Positions 2,324 to 38,461 of a DNA stretch of 38,461 bases are shown piece after piece. Source of the DNA: Phycisphaerae bacterium (lineage in GTDB: Bacteria > Planctomycetota > Phycisphaerae > Sedimentisphaerales > Anaerobacaceae); the NCBI GenBank assembly GCA_011776225.1, contig JAABXR010000374.1, positions 1 to 38,461 of the forward strand, given 5' to 3'. The position numbers and the translations under genes are program-made. The notes beneath the pieces were generated by a model. That model saw nothing but the letters and a program-made list of their open reading frames with translations, was not told where the DNA came from and did not search any database. Position 1 is the first letter of the stretch. Each line of letters starts with the position of its first letter.

Positions 2324-5300
2324 CTATGGATTGGCGGCACCAGGCGAAGGTATAGCCGCTTCCCAATTGACCACGTCATTGCCGTAATCACTAGGCTCCT
2401 TACGCGAAAGCGATTTGCCAAGCCCATCAGCCTCTCTCGGCCATAAGTCTACTCCGCCGGGACAATCCTCAGGATGCCAGCCGTCACTGTAAGTCACCCT
2501 GTCGATGCGGATATAATGACGGTTACCTTGATTATCAATATCACCGGGCATAGCAATCTGTAACCTCTCGCCGGCGTTGCTCAACCTGCCGCTGTAACCT
2601 TCGAGAACCTGAACGCCCGGCGGCATGACGCCATACCTTGCAGTAAAGGCTGTAAGATCCCTGGTCAATATCAGATAACCATAAGCCTGTATCGTCACAA
2701 CAGGACCGCTCGAGAAAGTGTAATCAATACCATCGGTGAACTTCCACGGTGCGGATTTGTCATAGCGATATAACGTCACCAGTGCTCCGGTTATGTTGTG
2801 AAGCTCGATATATTCCTCATTCTGATTGCCGGTCGGCGGATTGTACATAATCTCGTTGATTACAACGGGACCGACTTTGGGATAAGCATTATTCGAATCC
2901 GGCGTATTGTAGTCCATCGCCACAAAGTTGAAATTGCCGGTGCTGCTCTTGTAGTAACGACCAAACGATACGTTGGTCTGCGAAGCCCCAAAATCCTCCA
3001 CCTGGCGGTAGCCGGTCAGGAAACCATTCGGGTCCAGATATGAGGAAATACATGCCTCCTCACCGTTCTCGCTTAATGCAAAAGGTATAAGGCAGCCTGG
3101 ATCTCCAGGATTATTGAAATCCGTGTCCTGATAGAAGACCACATAATCGTTGCCGCCAATCGTTGTTCCATCGGCAATCCTGTATTTGGTAAGGTTTGGC
3201 TCATCCCTGTTATTGTCACTGAGGAACCAGCCGCCGATGTTGATAGGTTCGCTCGTGGTGTTGTGCAATTCAATCCAGTCCGGCCCGGCATTCGAATGCG
3301 CCATAACTTCGTTGACTACTATAGCACCGGGATTTGGAAGAATGCCGCTATCATCGGCGCCGGGTGTGCCGTTGCGGTAGACACTCGTACGCCAGGAGTC
3401 TTTCTTGCTCCAGCGTCCCATCGGGTTGGCTATATCCTGAAATTCACTTTCGCTTACTGCCCGATTATAGATGCGAACATCATCAATTAAACCGTTGAAA
3501 TAAAGTGAAGAAGAAGGTTCAAAACCAATATAAGCATTGCTGCTAACCCCTAAAAAACCGGTTGAATTATCACTGTCTTTCAGTTGGCCGTCAACGTAAA
3601 GCTTCAGGTTGGAACCATCATTGGTCCCGGCAACATGGTACCATTCGTTTGGATTAATTGTGTCTGGTGAAATCGCCTGGACATAAGCGGCACCTACAAC
3701 AATGTAAAATGCAGGCCTGCCACTGGAAATATAGAAATAGTAACCATTACCGGCATTTTGAGTCAGTACGGGATTCCATATTCCCCCGAACTCGCTCGTA
3801 CGTATCCATGCCTGTGCAGTTACGGTATTGCCTATTAAAGGAGCGACAGGGCCAACAGAGACATAATCTTCGGCACCATCAAAGTTCAAAGCTCCGTTAA
3901 TTCGGCCGGCTGTCCAGGTTGGGTCTCCATATAAGGTCCCGTGGTTAATACCCGCGCTGTCTGTCGCAGTGTTTCCGGAGCCGTCATCAAACTTCCAGTG
4001 CGCAACCAGACCTTCCGAACTATAAATGGCGCTATCGCCGGGCTCTATGATAGTCAGTGAAAAGCCATCGCCGTCGGCGATTGGACGCCAGCCATCCTTG
4101 TACTCAAAATCCAGAATCGTTCGGCCGATAACATCCTCCAGTCTAATTCTTTCACCATTGTTGGCCAGGCTGCCTGTGTATTGGCCTGCCGTATTGACTG
4201 ATGTGCCGTATTGTGCTTCAAATGCACTCTGGTTTTTCACAACTACAACGCATTCTTCGGGATCAAGCTCTATATCAGGGAAGGTGAAATGGATTCCTTC
4301 AGTGAACTTTACCAGATTCAGATTCAGTGTACTTTCTCCGATGTTTTTCAGTTCAATGAATTCCTCGTTCGGATCATTTATATTGCCCGTATTCCTTGGA
4401 TGGTACATAATCTCGGTGATGCGAAGGTTCTCGACGAGCGGACCGATGGAAAATATCGCCTCGTTCAGTGCGCTCCATGCGCCGCCATCCAGAACACGAG
4501 ACTTAACATGTGTGCTCTTGTTTAGTGTTATCGGATTGGGGGGAGTATATTGCGTCCCCACAGCATTGCCGGTCACGGGCTGGCGTGGATCGCTGCCGTC
4601 AAGGGTATAATAGATGGTACCGGACCCGTTGGGATTACTTATGGTCATGTTAAATCCGCCGGGAACCTCGCCGCCGTGTTGGTTGAAAGTGGGCGGATCC
4701 ACATCAGGATACCAATCCACATTTCTCAACTGCTGAAGAACAACTCCTACTCGGGGCGTCAGGTGCCTGCCGTCTGCAGTATCATAGAGCAGATCGTCAA
4801 TTTCGGGCACCCAATGGTCATCTTTTGTAAAAGGAGTTGTCCGCTTGGCATCGCCCCACCGCGCCGAATGTGCAATGATTGCCATATCGATTTGATTGGC
4901 ACGGTTTAGGACACGATTTCGGCATTTCTCGATGGTAAGAAGGCCGTCATTGAAAAAGTGGCGATACACATGGTCAGCAAAATGAAGGCTGTAATCGACA
5001 TTGGAAAACATGAGCTGTTCATGCAGCCAGTGCGCAGCGAAGTATTCCCTTTGACTAAAGAGGGTTTTGCTCGAGGTAAAAGGCGTAACCATATTCAACT
5101 CGGCGCTACCGGCACCGAGGGTATGCTCGTTATCATGGTGGAACCATATAAAACCATCCGGATTAACCCGATTAAAAATAACCCATGTGTTGTTTGGCTT
5201 ATCACCGAAACGCGAGCCGGGTCCGTCTCTGTCACCCGTGTAGTATTCGATTATCATAAAATCAATCAGGCCATCAACATCAAGTAATTTCTCATAGGTC

Positions 5301-8300
5301 GGATTGGGCGTGCCGTCGAGGTTTAATCCCTGCACTCGATAATACCTTCCGTAATTATCGAAACCCGCTATTGTCTCGTCGTAGAGCCGGTCAAGGGCCT
5401 CTCGGTTACCGTCTGTAGGTACCATTCTTCGGCCGGCGCTATAGTTCGATGATATGACGTCGTAATCATCCTTATCACCGCCAAAATAAGTCTCACCGAA
5501 CGAGGCCTCAGAGCGCTCCTGCGTCTGGAAAATCCCCCAATAATGACCGTTTATATAAAGATGGTAGTAGCGGCTTCGAGTATACGGATGGCCTGTCTCG
5601 CCTTGTACGTCACGGGACCACACCTCACGAACCAAGGTATTTGCGCTGCTGTTCTGGAAAGCCCAGGAGTAGTTCTGACTTGTGCGCAGGTCTATATGAT
5701 CAAATTCGTCGACACCTTCATCGGAGAACAAAGGGTATCTTAGTCTGCCGGCGCCATATACGGCCCGGAAGAAAAATCGGAATGCATGTTTGGGATTGCT
5801 GTCGCTGACGCTGAAGCCGCCACGAATCCGCATGCCGGCATCTATCTGGAAACCGTCACGCATATCAGCGGGTAATCCCAAACGTACTCCTCCCTGACTA
5901 TTAGGTACCTGCACCATGTCGGGAAAGCCCGGGCCCTGCGGATTAGGTGGATAAATCAATTCTATTGAAACGGGTCTCTCCCACGCCCTGCCTTCATGTC
6001 CCGCATTGACGTAAATTCCAATTGAGGGATCAAAAAGATTAGCCAAATCAGTCACCATCGAGATCGTAGGAATCGAAAGTAATGCATTGTCAACCATACC
6101 AAAATACCGCGGATCATTAACGACGACATCCGGATCCATACCATAATCAATCATTTGGCCGTTGACACTACCTGTGGGCCAACCGGGGCCGGGCGCTTCA
6201 CCATTAGGCGACTGTGTTATCACGTCGTTGACAAAGATATAAGTGTGTGTTTCCACTTCTGAGTCCAGCCAGCCAGGCTTGACCGCTATGGCACGAATGG
6301 TGGTAGTCCCATTCACATTGAGCGGGCTGATGTAAGTACTTCCATGTGTTATGGTGGGCTCTGAACCATCAAGAGTGTAATGTATCTCAGCACCTTTGGT
6401 CCCGGTGGACAAAGTTAACTGAAATCCAGTGTCATAAAAACCACGCTCATGACTGAACCAAACCTCATCAACAGCACCCAGTGCACCTGAGACGTTGAAC
6501 GCCCTCGGTGTCGGCGTTGTGAAGTATTGAGGAACACTCATGTTGCTGGCGGCGGTCAGTTCAGGCAAGATAAGGAAATTTGGGTCGCCGGCGTTGTCAT
6601 TAAGCCCGTGAATAGCCAGCACGTTCTTACCGGCCTGCAAAACGCCCAAATAGGCGGTAAGGTTAATAACCTCGAAGACCGAAGCATCCTGAATCGGACG
6701 ATTGGAATCAGCTGTTGAGTTCCACTGCAATGAGCCCGGTGCATTGCGGCTGCAAACTTGTTGGCCATTAAGGTAAGCCACAAAACCATCCTCGTACTTC
6801 ATCCGCAATATTAATTTATCAAAAAGCTCCGGCTCCCCTAATTCGAGATTAAACTCGCTGCGCATCCATAGAGAGGCGTTGGAACCTAACATATCGTTCT
6901 TAACATCGGTGCCGCTGAAACCTCCCTCAAGCTTGAATACGTCAAAGGAATACGCCTTGCGACCATCGGTAGCACTTGGATCGGCCTCGGCCCGAACCGA
7001 AAAGCTGCCATCGGCCGCTGTAATACCGGTCCAGCGTGCTACGTATCCTTCGTTGTGATTGTCGCCGGTGTTGAACTGCACCTTGTTTTCAGCGAGGACG
7101 ACTACGCCGGGAGTGCTGGCATTTGTATAAGTATCGGCGCCGCTAAGAGTATAATTCGTGAACCGGCCGGTGTAATTGCTGCGAGCAGCCGATGTGGCAA
7201 AGGTGTACTCGGTCGACGGATCCAGACCCGTGAATGTTAAGTTGACCTGCCAGCCTGCACTGCCATAAGTAAGTACGCCGGTCATATCGGTAATTCCGCC
7301 GAACGTATTGTGGGCATCGGTGCCAACGGCGCAGTCACCTCCACCGGTAGAAGTGCTCGGCTGCCAACTGACGCCGCCGCTCTCTGTCAGCGTTGCCGTT
7401 ATACCTGTGTTTTCACCTGTGGCCTGATCCAGCAGCGGCCCGTAAGTAGGACCAGGATTCCCGCTGCCAATACAATAGGTTGTAACGTTTTCGGCGATGT
7501 ACTGACCACTGGCATAGATAACATCATTGTAGGCTACGCTCGGCTCGCCCCCAACTCCGAAACCAATCCCGGTTTTTCCCGTATCCCATGTTGAGTCGTC
7601 GAAATCAACATCAGCCCAATCGGTACCCAAACCCGCATCACCGCTGGTGGGAACATAATATGAAGCGCTCGCACCTCTTGGTACGAGCGTTGCGCCATAT
7701 TGTGTCAGACCGTAAGAAACATCAGTTAACTGTCGTGGATATTCCGGTGAATATTCGTGTACGACAGCCATGCCGTCAGGTGCCACAAGGGCAAGATAAT
7801 CTCCCTCCTGGTTGAGTTCGAAGTTGGTGTGTAGCTCGTTCGGGTCCAATCTGTTCTTTCCCGATGCGAATACTATCAGGAATTCGCCCGGATCAACCTG
7901 AACACCGCCTGGAAACTGCCACTTGGTAAGATTGGAATCATTGTCGGTCAGATACCAGCCGTCCAGATTGACTGTTGTGTCCGTCGGATTGTAAATCTCA
8001 ATCCAGTCGGAGGAATCCCCGTCAGAATCCAGCAGGTCGCCTTCCTTCGGTGGCAGAGGCGGCTTGTTGCTGGCGTTACTGGCCAGGAACTCGCTGATGA
8101 CTATGTGGGGATTAACCACCTGCCAGTTATTTGCCAACAGGGCAAAGTCGGCCATATTTACCCCGTCAGCACCATCCAGGTCGGCAATGCAATTAGAGAC
8201 CAGACAGTCAGGATCCAACCATTGAAAGGCATACATCCGCAGGTCTTCGGAATCTACCCTGTAGTCCCTATTCAAATCACCTACGGCAAAAGATTGGGCT

Positions 8301-8392
8301 TCGCTCAAACCGGTCAAAGATACTATCAATAGCACTGATAACGCCGTAAGGCGTACCCAAACGGAAAATAAGGTTTTCTCAAATATGGGCAT
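2324..8392 (-). CDS. Very large secreted multidomain protein: signal peptide, dockerin-like repeat, four lamin-tail-like (LTD) regions, CotH-kinase-like domain, two chitobiase/hexosaminidase C-terminal-like segments, LamG/ConA-like domain
   Basis: 2022-aa ORF. Dockerin-like GDLNRDYRVDSEDL...ADLDGADGVNMADFALLANNW; LTD motifs VISEFLASN..DWIEIYNP, RITEIMYHP..EEFIELKN, VVNEVMAHS..DWIELHN, VINEIMYNPP..EEYIELHN; CotH-like GMRIRGGFSVSDSNPKHAFRFFFR...YGAGRLRYPLF; IHYTLDGSEPT and IYYTLDGSDPR; LamG-like GLVAHWKFDDGSGNTATDSAG. Confidence 0.85.
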   Translation of the reverse strand: MPIFEKTLFSVWVRLTALSVLLIVSLTGLSEAQSFAVGDLNRDYRVDSEDLRMYAFQWLDPDCLVSNCIADLDGADGVNMADFALLANNWQVVNPHIVISEFLASNASNKPPLPPKEGDLLDSDGDSSDWIEIYNPTDTTVNLDGWYLTDNDSNLTKWQFPGGVQVDPGEFLIVFASGKNRLDPNELHTNFELNQEGDYLALVAPDGMAVVHEYSPEYPRQLTDVSYGLTQYGATLVPRGASASYYVPTSGDAGLGTDWADVDFDDSTWDTGKTGIGFGVGGEPSVAYNDVIYASGQYIAENVTTYCIGSGNPGPTYGPLLDQATGENTGITATLTESGGVSWQPSTSTGGGDCAVGTDAHNTFGGITDMTGVLTYGSAGWQVNLTFTGLDPSTEYTFATSAARSNYTGRFTNYTLSGADTYTNASTPGVVVLAENKVQFNTGDNHNEGYVARWTGITAADGSFSVRAEADPSATDGRKAYSFDVFKLEGGFSGTDVKNDMLGSNASLWMRSEFNLELGEPELFDKLILRMKYEDGFVAYLNGQQVCSRNAPGSLQWNSTADSNRPIQDASVFEVINLTAYLGVLQAGKNVLAIHGLNDNAGDPNFLILPELTAASNMSVPQYFTTPTPRAFNVSGALGAVDEVWFSHERGFYDTGFQLTLSTGTKGAEIHYTLDGSEPTITHGSTYISPLNVNGTTTIRAIAVKPGWLDSEVETHTYIFVNDVITQSPNGEAPGPGWPTGSVNGQMIDYGMDPDVVVNDPRYFGMVDNALLSIPTISMVTDLANLFDPSIGIYVNAGHEGRAWERPVSIELIYPPNPQGPGFPDMVQVPNSQGGVRLGLPADMRDGFQIDAGMRIRGGFSVSDSNPKHAFRFFFRAVYGAGRLRYPLFSDEGVDEFDHIDLRTSQNYSWAFQNSSANTLVREVWSRDVQGETGHPYTRSRYYHLYINGHYWGIFQTQERSEASFGETYFGGDKDDYDVISSNYSAGRRMVPTDGNREALDRLYDETIAGFDNYGRYYRVQGLNLDGTPNPTYEKLLDVDGLIDFMIIEYYTGDRDGPGSRFGDKPNNTWVIFNRVNPDGFIWFHHDNEHTLGAGSAELNMVTPFTSSKTLFSQREYFAAHWLHEQLMFSNVDYSLHFADHVYRHFFNDGLLTIEKCRNRVLNRANQIDMAIIAHSARWGDAKRTTPFTKDDHWVPEIDDLLYDTADGRHLTPRVGVVLQQLRNVDWYPDVDPPTFNQHGGEVPGGFNMTISNPNGSGTIYYTLDGSDPRQPVTGNAVGTQYTPPNPITLNKSTHVKSRVLDGGAWSALNEAIFSIGPLVENLRITEIMYHPRNTGNINDPNEEFIELKNIGESTLNLNLVKFTEGIHFTFPDIELDPEECVVVVKNQSAFEAQYGTSVNTAGQYTGSLANNGERIRLEDVIGRTILDFEYKDGWRPIADGDGFSLTIIEPGDSAIYSSEGLVAHWKFDDGSGNTATDSAGINHGTLYGDPTWTAGRINGALNFDGAEDYVSVGPVAPLIGNTVTAQAWIRTSEFGGIWNPVLTQNAGNGYYFYISSGRPAFYIVVGAAYVQAISPDTINPNEWYHVAGTNDGSNLKLYVDGQLKDSDNSTGFLGVSSNAYIGFEPSSSLYFNGLIDDVRIYNRAVSESEFQDIANPMGRWSKKDSWRTSVYRNGTPGADDSGILPNPGAIVVNEVMAHSNAGPDWIELHNTTSEPINIGGWFLSDNNRDEPNLTKYRIADGTTIGGNDYVVFYQDTDFNNPGDPGCLIPFALSENGEEACISSYLDPNGFLTGYRQVEDFGASQTNVSFGRYYKSSTGNFNFVAMDYNTPDSNNAYPKVGPVVINEIMYNPPTGNQNEEYIELHNITGALVTLYRYDKSAPWKFTDGIDYTFSSGPVVTIQAYGYLILTRDLTAFTARYGVMPPGVQVLEGYSGRLSNAGERLQIAMPGDIDNQGNRHYIRIDRVTYSDGWHPEDCPGGVDLWPREADGLGKSLSRKEPSDYGNDVVNWEAAIPSPGAANP

Positions 8393-35252: not shown

Positions 35253-35809
35253 AGAAACAAAAAGCAAAGAAAAAACGGTTGCTCTTGAAAATACTTATTT
35301 TGGTGTCTTTTATATTGCTGTGTTTGACGGGCTCTCTTTTTTATCTTGCGTACAGGATAATAGAATTGTTTCCGGTAAGGGTCGAGATGAGTGACCCTAA
35401 AATTGCTCCTTTGTTGAATGCTGCAGAATCTTTTGAACGTGTAAAATACGGTTTTTCACCCCTTCCGGAAAAGGCTGATGTTCGACTCGAATCGCGTCCG
35501 ATGAGACAAGCATATGACGCAATGCTTCACATATCTTCAAAGACATCAAGAACCATCGCCTTCAGGAAAACTGACAAGGGTTATCGCTGGATAGGGGAAC
35601 AAGAAACGTTTCGGGGACCAAATCGGTATAAGACGGTTGATGGAACTTTCTACGAAGAGATAACCCTAACATTTCATATAGAAAAGGTCTCGGGTCATCC
35701 GACAAATAGGTTGAATGTTTCGTATTTTGGAGAAGACCCACGGCTTGCAAATCTTCGAAAACTCACTATCAAAGATGTTCAGCCGATTCTTAGAGAATGG
35801 GGATATTGA
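35249..35809 (+). CDS. Hypothetical membrane-anchored protein
   Basis: Basic N-terminus plus TM (LLLKILILVSFILLCLTGSLFYLAYRII) then a 150-aa extracytoplasmic region; AGAGAAGGA upstream. Confidence 0.65.
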   Translation: MKKQKAKKKRLLLKILILVSFILLCLTGSLFYLAYRIIELFPVRVEMSDPKIAPLLNAAESFERVKYGFSPLPEKADVRLESRPMRQAYDAMLHISSKTSRTIAFRKTDKGYRWIGEQETFRGPNRYKTVDGTFYEEITLTFHIEKVSGHPTNRLNVSYFGEDPRLANLRKLTIKDVQPILREWGY

Positions 35810-35822
35810 TGGTTTAGAAAGA

Positions 35823-37640
35823 ATGATTATGTTTCTTAAGCGTTTAAATGAGAAATGTCAGCTAAAGCCGTTTATGAGGGTTTTCGCAGTACTTGCGATA
35901 TTGACTGCAGTAAACCTGATCCCTTCCAATTCGAACACGGCTATTGCCAAAAGCACTCCGGAAACTGCATCCATTTCTAAAGATAAAACAGAGACAGTGG
36001 AGTCTTTGATAAAGCAGTTGAATGGAAGTTGGAGAGGTTACGGAGGTCGGGGAAGTTGGCGTGTCCACGAAGACGCCGTTAAGGAGCTTATAAAAATAGG
36101 AGAACCGGCGATAGAGCCGCTGATAAAAGCGCTGGGGGATAAAGATATGTCTGTCCGTTCAGATGCCCTTGAGGTGCTTGTAAGAATAGGAGAACCGGCG
36201 ATAGAGCCGCTGATAAAGGCGCTGGCCGATAAAGATCCGAATGTCCGCGAATACGCCGCTGTTGCGCTGAAGTGGATAGGTGATGACAGGGCGGTAGAGC
36301 CGCTGATAAAGGCGCTGGCCGATAAACATCCGGATGTTCGCCAAAGAGCCGCTGAGGCGCTGGGGGATATAGGTGATACAAAAGCGGTAGACCCGCTGTT
36401 ACAGGCGTTTAAAAATAATTATATCTGCCACTACGCTGCTATTGCGCTGGGCCAGATAGGAGATACAAAAGCTGTAGAGCCGATGATAAACGCGCTGGGG
36501 GATAGAAAATCGAGTATCCGCGCTGCCGCCTCTACGGCGCTGGGATTGATAGGTGATACAAAAGCGGTAGAGCCGCTGATAGAGGTGCTGGCCGATAAAA
36601 ATCTGGATGTCCGCGAAGCCGCCGCTCGGGCGCTGGGTATGATAGGTGATGCCAGGGCGTTGGAGCCGCTGATAAATGTGCTGGCCGATATGAATAAAAA
36701 CAATGATTTCCGCCAGGACGCCGCTTGGGCGCTGGGCAGGATTGGTGATACAAAAGCGATAGAGCCGCTGGTAAACGCACTGGGGGATAAAGATTGGTTT
36801 GTCCGCGATCACGCCGCTGAGGCACTGGGAAATATAGGTGATTCAAAGGCAGTAAAGCCGCTGATAAAGTTGCTGGGTGATGAAGATAAGTATATCCTCC
36901 GTTCAGTCGAAGATAGCTATATCGTTCGTTCAACCGCCGCTGAGGCGCTGGGCAAGATAGGTGACAGGCGAGCGATAGAGCCGCTGATAAACGCGCTGGG
37001 GGATGAAGAAGGGCGTGTCCGCAAGGCAGCCGCTGAGGCGCTGGGAAAGATAGGCGACAGGCGAGCGATAGAGCCGCTGGTAAACGCGCTGGGTGATAAA
37101 GATTGGTCTACCAACATAACTGCCGCTGAGGCGCTGGGCCGGATAGGTGATAAAAAAGCGGTAAAGCCGCTGATAAATGCGCTGGGATATGGGGATTGGT
37201 CTATCCGCAGAGCCGCCGCTCGGGCGCTGGGCCGGATAGGCGATACAAATGCTGTAGAGCCCCTGACAAAGTTGCTGGGTGATGAAGATATGTATCTCCG
37301 CATAGCCGCCGCTGAGGCGCTGGGCCGGATAGGTGATACAAAAGCGATAGAGCCGCTGATAAAGGCATTGGGGGATAAAAAATGGCACGTCCGCAAAGCC
37401 GCCGTTCTGGCACTGGGCAATATAGGTGATGTAAGGGCGGTAAAGCCGCTGATAAACTTGCTGGGTGATGAAGATAGAGATATCCGCAGGGCCGCCGCTG
37501 GGGCGCTGGGCCGGATAGGTGATACAAAAGCGGTAGAGCCGCTAATAGAGTTGCTGGGTGATAAAGATAAGTATATCCACGAAGCCGCCGCTGAGGCCCT
37601 TGAGAAATTAAACTACAAGCCGGGAATCCATGAAAAGTAA
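35823..37640 (+). CDS. Secreted HEAT-repeat (PBS lyase HEAT-like) protein with ~16 repeats
   Basis: Repeated AAEALGRIGDTKAVEPLIKALGDKDxxVR units, ~31 aa each. Signal peptide MRVFAVLAILTAVNLIPSNSNTAIA after MIMFLKRLNEKCQLKPF. The ORF start at 35715 lies inside the previous gene, so 35823 is preferred. Confidence 0.85.
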   Translation: MIMFLKRLNEKCQLKPFMRVFAVLAILTAVNLIPSNSNTAIAKSTPETASISKDKTETVESLIKQLNGSWRGYGGRGSWRVHEDAVKELIKIGEPAIEPLIKALGDKDMSVRSDALEVLVRIGEPAIEPLIKALADKDPNVREYAAVALKWIGDDRAVEPLIKALADKHPDVRQRAAEALGDIGDTKAVDPLLQAFKNNYICHYAAIALGQIGDTKAVEPMINALGDRKSSIRAAASTALGLIGDTKAVEPLIEVLADKNLDVREAAARALGMIGDARALEPLINVLADMNKNNDFRQDAAWALGRIGDTKAIEPLVNALGDKDWFVRDHAAEALGNIGDSKAVKPLIKLLGDEDKYILRSVEDSYIVRSTAAEALGKIGDRRAIEPLINALGDEEGRVRKAAAEALGKIGDRRAIEPLVNALGDKDWSTNITAAEALGRIGDKKAVKPLINALGYGDWSIRRAAARALGRIGDTNAVEPLTKLLGDEDMYLRIAAAEALGRIGDTKAIEPLIKALGDKKWHVRKAAVLALGNIGDVRAVKPLINLLGDEDRDIRRAAAGALGRIGDTKAVEPLIELLGDKDKYIHEAAAEALEKLNYKPGIHEK

Positions 37641-37780
37641 ATAATCCCTACCTGTTCACCGGGCCGAAAACGCTGGATATGCCGACGGCTTGAATCAATA
37701 AATGTGTGTATAATGCTATAATTATCTTCATGTAATAAAGCCTTCCCTGTAAAAAATTAGAAAGCCATCACGCAGCGATT

Positions 37781-37841
37781 CCACAATTTTACACTTTGAG
37801 TTGTGGTTTTAAACTTTTCACTTTCAACTTTAAACTGTTTC
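37781..37841 (+). repeat. Intergenic repeat family B, copy 1 (61 nt)
   Basis: CCACAATTTTACACTTTGAGTTGTGGTTTTAAACTTTTCACTTTCAACTTTAAACTGTTTC; 6 mismatches to 38401..38461; internal CCACAA..TTGTGG stem. Confidence 0.8.
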
Positions 37842-38060: not shown

Positions 38061-38129
38061 CTCACTCTTAACTAACGAGAATTGAGCATCCAGAATCGAT
38101 TAAATTTTCTTAAAAAAGTTCATTTTTTA

Positions 38130-38158
38130 TTGAACATTTAATGACCGTTTGGTATAAT
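38130..38158 (+). promoter_or_regulatory. Consensus-like sigma70 promoter for an intergenic RNA
   Basis: TTGAAC (38130..38135), exactly 17 nt, TATAAT (38153..38158). Confidence 0.6.
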
Positions 38159-38164
38159 TACAAT

Positions 38165-38288
38165 CGCCACAGAAGTGGCAGATAGCGGAGAACCGCAAGT
38201 TTAGCCCTGTACCATTTAGGCGTTAGCCTGAGCAAAATTGGTTCAGGGCGCAAAAAAACCAATATTTGTCGATAAACGACAAGTTTTT
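38165..38288 (+). ncRNA. Candidate structured small RNA of unknown family (or riboswitch-like leader)
   Basis: GCCAC-AGAA-GTGGC (38166..38179); GCGG-AGAA-CCGC (38185..38196); GCCCTG...ACCA..AGGC-GTTA-GCCT..TGGT..CAGGGC (38204..38249); terminator TTGTCG-ATAAA-CGACAA-G-TTTTT (38266..38288). Confidence 0.55.
38266..38288 (+). terminator. Intrinsic terminator of the candidate ncRNA
   Basis: TTGTCG-ATAAA-CGACAA stem followed by G then T5. Confidence 0.6.
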
Positions 38289-38400
38289 GAACATTTTCTT
38301 GCCCCGTTAGATAGCGAAGCGTTATCTAACTGGGTGGTCTATAAATGACAAAAAACAACCGTTTTACGCCGGCTAAAATAAGAGTCCGCCCGAAGGCCCT

Positions 38401-38461
38401 CCACAATTTTGCATTTTTAGTTGTGGTTTTACACTTTTCAATTTCAACTTTTAACTGTTTC
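38401..38461 (+). repeat. Intergenic repeat family B, copy 2, reaching the window edge
   Basis: CCACAATTTTGCATTTTTAGTTGTGGTTTTACACTTTTCAATTTCAACTTTTAACTGTTTC; ~55/61 identical to 37781..37841. Confidence 0.8.

Follow-up and report, generated by a model that had tools for sequence, protein, structure and literature searches.

A putative promoter-leader repeat interspersed in Phycisphaerae genomes

Introduction

Close to the end of the window, i.e. the whole stretch of 38,461 nt analysed here from contig JAABXR010000374.1 of a Phycisphaerae bacterium, a promoter-like sequence is followed by a series of hairpins and a T-run. The question raised by this locus is whether it encodes an independent small RNA, forms the leader of a downstream gene or belongs to a larger unit. 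The initial annotation, restricted to positions 38130-38288, had proposed an autonomous sRNA of about 124 nt or, as a second option, a leader for the ORF opening at 38345. Comparison with related genomes, all of them draft metagenome assemblies, indicates that this locus represents a single copy of an interspersed element of about 0.5-1 kb that is specific to the lineage.

Results and Discussion

Copies of the element and their distribution

A search of the own genome with positions 38110-38461 returned 54 matches, in pieces, and upon alignment these proved to be mosaic copies of one element. Its parts are arranged in the order of promoter and first hairpins, changing hairpin modules, variable word-like stretches, a translation start, a CTCTACAnnTGTAGAG palindrome and a MQNKANFRKSQMNVNKVLTKDYE...QTQFKPKQTQF module. 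A covariance model comprising the promoter together with hairpins 1 and 2 (R1) gave 19 matches in the own genome (55% complete), 13, 17, 28 and 53 matches in four congeners, and 8 and 18 in two other genera. Overall, 17 of the 89 family genomes contained R1 matches, some of the weakest of which are probably due to chance. Elsewhere in the class the element is rare; of 198 genomes sampled across it, 4 contained the 3' module. When named relatives were searched by pattern, 58 of 59 matches belonged to Phycisphaerae/Planctomycetota MAGs.

No copy of the element was found in the phage, plasmid and IMG/VR collections, and a phage or plasmid origin was rejected on this basis. The 5' and 3' consensus sequences share no terminal inverted repeats. 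At the dnaK locus described below, the flanks are rearranged and offer no clean empty site for target-site duplications. A search of the open-access literature yielded no description of such a repeat in Phycisphaerae, and a description elsewhere is possible.

Extent of the window copy, promoter and 5' hairpins

The features of the window copy are listed in Table 1.

Table 1. Features of the element copy at the 3' end of the window.
Feature	Positions	Strand	Remark
AT-rich 5' edge of the repeat (T-run/A-run block, UP-element-like)	38101-38129	+	information jump, 76 copies
Sigma-70-type promoter TTGAAC-N17-TATAAT with extended -10	38130-38158	+	boxes kept, spacer variable, 76 copies
Hairpin 1, GCCAC-AGAA-GTGGC	38166-38179	+	predicted RNA position +2, predicted start near 38165
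Hairpin 2, GCGG-AGAA-CCGC (family form GCGG-AGNN-CCGC)	38185-38196	+	pairing across copies
Three-tier stem GCCCTG/CAGGGC, inner ACCA/TGGT and AGGC-GTTA-GCCT	38204-38249	+	interchangeable palindromic module
Terminator-like hairpin TTGTCG-ATAAA-CGACAA (38266-38282) and GTTTTT	38266-38288	+	private to window copy
Separate palindromic insert CCCCGTTAGATAGCGAAGCGTTATCTAACTGGG	38298-38334	+	missing from most copies
SD-like GGTG(G) and leader ATG	38333-38347	+	TGG(T/A)nTATAAATG word common to sister copies
Leader frame MTKNNRFTPAKIRVRPKALHNFAFLVVVLHFSISTFNCF..., ATG 38345	38345-38461	+	open at contig end

An information profile was calculated from 76 copies, which were picked without an exact-pattern constraint on the hairpins. 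Information per position is close to zero upstream and reaches up to 1.9 bits at the 5' edge. From this sharp rise, 47 nt 5' of the GTTTGG box, the window copy is estimated to begin near 38100. The initial annotation had located the individual features correctly but missed the extent of the element, which starts near 38100 and continues on its 3' side beyond the contig end at 38461.

The promoter described initially is present, with the -35 box at 38130-38135, a spacer of 17 nt, the -10 box at 38153-38158 and the extended -10 TG at 38150-38151. Across the 76 copies, information amounts to about 1.5 bits at each base of the -35 box and to about 1.6-2 bits in TGGTATAAT, compared to 0.2-0.6 in the middle of the spacer. 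Five sigma-70-like sites, the window promoter among them, were counted in the region against 1.8 expected. Since the -35, -10 and extended -10 sequences are kept across copies and the spacer is not, this promoter is regarded as more than a chance occurrence. One genus carries TTGACT in place of TTGAAC, with nearly unchanged spacing.

Both AGAA-loop hairpins are likewise found at the places first reported, just 3' of the promoter, and are conserved. Hairpin 1 starts exactly 7 nt 3' of the -10 box in 76 of 76 copies, which corresponds to the predicted 5' end of the RNA. All five pairs are formed in 66 of the 76 copies; as fifth pair, 61 copies have T-A and 10 have C-G. Hairpin 2 has all four pairs in each of the 67 copies where it was found, with loops of the type AGNN and one compensatory change from C-G to T-A. 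A covariation analysis among the copies, which had been recommended at the outset, revealed compensatory stem changes, with 7 cells showing two-sided changes against 1.8 in shuffles; invariant pairs are uninformative in the mixed alignment used, because it was partly derived from a pattern that fixes several stem bases.

The leader reading frame

Most copies contain a long open frame 3' of the hairpins, on the + strand only. In sister copies the leader frames continue into an MQNKANF... module, and other copies possess a better Shine-Dalgarno sequence than the window copy, namely AAGGTG or AAGG. Within the core, anchored at MQNKANF, frame 0 shows 0.4-0.8 stops per 100 codons versus 2.5-12.8 in the other + frames, and the difference fades outside the core.

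Because the copies are related, substitutions were counted along a minimum spanning tree of 99 core modules, excluding the anchor words. The 432 substitutions obtained are distributed 124/153/155 over the three codon positions. In frame 0 only 3 of them create a stop, against 24.8 expected (P about 5e-8), a value to be read with the crude tree in mind, with an expectation that ignores rate differences between columns and with a single module alignable at length without gaps. The corresponding numbers are 29 against 25.1 for frame 1 and 20 against 29.5 for frame 2, while a second, shorter block gave 0 stop-creating changes against 4.0 expected. The synonymous fraction is 0.196, compared to a neutral expectation of 0.210. 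A conserved peptide in the leader was rejected on the basis of the nearly equal use of the three codon positions and this near-neutral fraction. The depletion of stops in frame 0, combined with the even codon positions, points to a leader with apparent selection against nonsense but not against missense. It appears that translation of the leader matters and that the peptide does not. The second option of the initial annotation, in which the ORF at 38345 has this region as its leader, agrees with the stop-depleted frame behind the hairpins. From +120 to +180 of the MQNKANF anchor, the base composition is 27.9% C and 10.3% G.

Three loci (L143 3179+, L121 1711+ and L204 511+) encode a protein of about 200 residues, starting with MATKDQIIANRLNAQKSTGP, in the leader position, and a decayed version of 43 residues, MTTEAQILPNCRNAPNSTGP, is present at L106. 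Neither the leader products nor the 202-residue NAQKSTGP protein matched a Pfam or NCBIfam family above cut-off. Within the window, positions 37780-37841 and 38400-38461 are 90% identical (TCCACAATTTT...AACTGTTTC); the frame open in the latter is interrupted by a stop in the former, which lies outside the element.

Genomic context and the dnaK locus

Copies of the element are intergenic, and 7 of 41 typed gaps are convergent. With genes predicted by a home-made caller, 37 of 51 copies have their next downstream gene on the same strand (p 0.002); a stricter cut leaves 36 of 51. Tandem gaps favour the gene direction by 16:5. The bias is modest, because a few of the '+' calls (at L140, L143, L156 and L194) are the element's own frames.

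The element precedes dnaK in three genomes (G000, G001 and G004), and its 3' part does so at a contig end in G002, four species in all sharing this position; G022 and G026 lack it there. Between the element and dnaK, a native promoter of the sigma-54 type (TGGCACG-N5-TTGC) is retained. The inner modules differ strongly between these orthologous copies, which hints at sequence exchange among copies and not at new insertions. The idea that leaders generally run into their genes as continuous fusions was discarded, since native 5' regions and promoters intervene at orthologous loci. The same sigma-54 type promoter stands before dnaK across several genera of the family (L198-L203); promoters of this type are unusual for a chaperone gene.

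Taken together, the feature is probably (at roughly 60%) one copy of a Correia/BOX-like interspersed promoter-leader cassette directed at the neighbouring gene. This reading draws on sequence comparison: the number of copies and their sharp 5' edge, the fixed geometry of promoter and hairpins, the pair changes, the depletion of stops in one frame, the orientation bias and the shared position at dnaK. An effect of the element on neighbouring genes is inferred. Several observations speak against the cassette reading. In about a quarter of the copies the gene ahead lies on the other strand, so that a leader role fits most copies and not all; native promoters persist between element and gene, which therefore need not depend on the element; and some frames are broken by stops or shifts (L006 and L024).

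Moreover, a selfish repeat needing a promoter and an open frame when active would look alike. In such a repeat, MITE-like or otherwise, promoter and frame would serve its own spread, with incidental effects on neighbours. The multi-copy, mosaic and lineage-restricted nature of the element agrees with this, as do its occurrence in either orientation to genes and the MATKDQIIANRLNAQKSTGP... protein encoded in the leader position of some copies. We nevertheless consider it rather doubtful in view of the missing terminal inverted repeats, the lack of copies in phage, plasmid and IMG/VR collections, the bias in orientation towards the downstream gene and a position at dnaK that is stable across species while the inner modules change.

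Exchangeable stems and the small RNA reading

The three-tier stem exists where it had been placed initially, and some other copies carry it as well. By blastn, 48 homologous stretches were found, some of them outside any copy of the element, and the module shows 7 two-sided changes against 2.0 in shuffles. To judge from these matches, it is one of several interchangeable palindromic modules. A palindrome related to it, CCGCACCAAAACGACGTGAGCCGAAGCTCTTTTGGTGCGG, is located between the sigma-54 type promoter and dnaK at a locus where the element is absent (L201, G026).

For the annotated intrinsic terminator, hairpin and T-run could be recovered, but the site is weak, being unlisted on the + strand by one scan and listed by a laxer one, and it is unique to the window copy. 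A conserved terminator was sought in the next 230 nt: any terminator-like site occurred in 3 of 73 copies, which equals the shuffled level, and that of the window in no other copy. The palindromic insert following it (query positions 189-225) is skipped by homologous copies and matches alone elsewhere in the genome.

The private terminator, the exchangeable three-tier stem and the separate insert together take away the grounds for proposing a 124-nt autonomous sRNA. Like an sRNA gene, the window feature has a promoter of its own; its RNA is predicted to fold strongly (-49.5 kcal/mol for 38161 to 38290, z -7.2 versus dinucleotide shuffles), and a terminator-like hairpin is present in this copy. 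However, the hairpins past hairpin 2 are swapped between copies, the conserved frame starts where the sRNA should end, and the conserved unit is a repeat entering a stop-depleted frame, which makes such an sRNA, or a small family of them, very unlikely. No family of the Rfam 15 covariance models reached its gathering score for the window feature, in line with the original remark that no known riboswitch or housekeeping RNA could be recognised. The best low-threshold matches (BTnc060, 17.6 bits against a gathering score of 228.9) were dismissed as chance, and a tRNA/tmRNA search found none.

In a subgroup of the G004 copies (L204-L208), ACATG-TAGA-CATGT close behind the -10 box replaces hairpin 1; the presence of a 5' hairpin is thus maintained while its sequence changes. 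That an equally sized but unrelated hairpin can take the place of hairpin 1 argues against sequence-specific recognition and leaves hardly any credit to a put-like antitermination RNA, as in phage HK022, whose 5' hairpins would act on RNA polymerase to cause read-through of terminators towards the gene, even though the two hairpins that open the RNA at a fixed distance from the promoter, together with a long leader ahead of a gene, would suit it.

Proposed mode of action

If the element is a promoter-leader cassette, its strong sigma-70-type promoter would produce a constitutive RNA with a hairpin at the very 5' end, followed by a modular string of short hairpins and then by a translation start and a stop-free leader frame running towards the neighbouring gene. 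The 5' hairpins may shield this RNA from 5'-end-dependent decay, a hairpin-capped 5' end being a stabilising feature of bacterial mRNAs (reviewed in PMC7509114). Ribosomes on the stop-free frame could cover the C-rich, G-poor 3' end and in this way keep Rho from terminating before the gene; Rho entry sites are C-rich and G-poor (PMC9426467). A stop in the leader would then cause early termination, and for this reason openness of the frame may be selected and the peptide not. Overall, this would add constitutive transcription in the direction of the neighbour.

Promoter-bearing interspersed repeats as such are already known. In a more far-reaching version, which we put forward only tentatively, promoter cassettes of this kind form a genome-wide set in which the leader is selected for being translated, whatever it encodes, and translation protects against Rho or decay. 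The hairpin cap at the 5' end would be exchangeable, and modules at fixed sites would be shuffled by a process resembling gene conversion. If true, a repeated leader in which nonsense but not missense is selected against would offer a clear natural example in which translation serves as a regulatory state. Gene callers would be expected to predict odd low-complexity 'hypothetical proteins' (MQNKANF..., QTQFKPKQTQF) in these genomes, and these would find an explanation too, some of the predictions being false N-terminal extensions of real genes.

Comparison with known elements

The Correia elements (CREE) of Neisseria occur in more than 100 interspersed copies at positions mostly common to strains, carry sigma-70 promoters, form RNA hairpins acting on mRNA stability and are sometimes situated upstream of a native promoter (PMC2649163). 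The present element resembles them in its interspersed copies with a sigma-70 promoter and RNA hairpins, in shared positions and in a native promoter downstream. In contrast to CREE, which measure 69-157 bp, end in inverted repeats and have no long leader frame, it is much longer, lacks terminal inverted repeats, has a complete internal promoter and includes a leader frame.

BOX elements of Streptococcus pneumoniae are, in the part of the source considered, modular and interspersed, with hairpin RNA and variable inner modules, and the open frames of their long forms pass the element end (PMC3049150). The present element is similarly modular, with hairpin RNA and open frames running past it, a likeness of description between unrelated organisms and not of compared sequences. 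That part of the source describes no promoter of BOX itself and an over-representation between convergent genes, whereas the present element has its own promoter and few convergent gaps (see above); nor does it show selection on the BOX open frames, whereas here stops are depleted in one frame.

RPE of Rickettsia are interspersed repeats compatible with a reading frame (PMC10969869), but they often lie inside genes and have a conserved peptide, while the present element lies between genes and its peptide is unconstrained. Assignment to the Rickettsia palindromic elements was rejected in view of the synonymous fraction given above and the intergenic copies. As in REP/REPIN, inner modules such as the three-tier stem and the GTTAG palindrome are dispersed palindromes also found alone; unlike these simple palindromes, the whole element is an oriented promoter-leader unit. 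For bp2923/cruR of Bordetella, a translated upstream ORF and a C>G bubble ahead of the gene have been reported as a Rho-gated arrangement (PMC9426467). The element shares with it a putative translated leader and, as the sole sign of Rho gating, the C>G skew of its 3' part, but bp2923/cruR is a single regulated operon with a ligand, whereas the leader considered here is repeated genome-wide. By analogy, the element would work most like the Correia and BOX elements and may be called a new variant of interspersed regulatory repeat.

Other reading frames in the window

Just upstream of the element, positions 35715-37640 contain an ORF of 641 codons, the second half of which contains many near-identical HEAT/PBS-lyase-like repeats. 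A very long ORF of 2022 codons is located on the - strand at 2324-8392.
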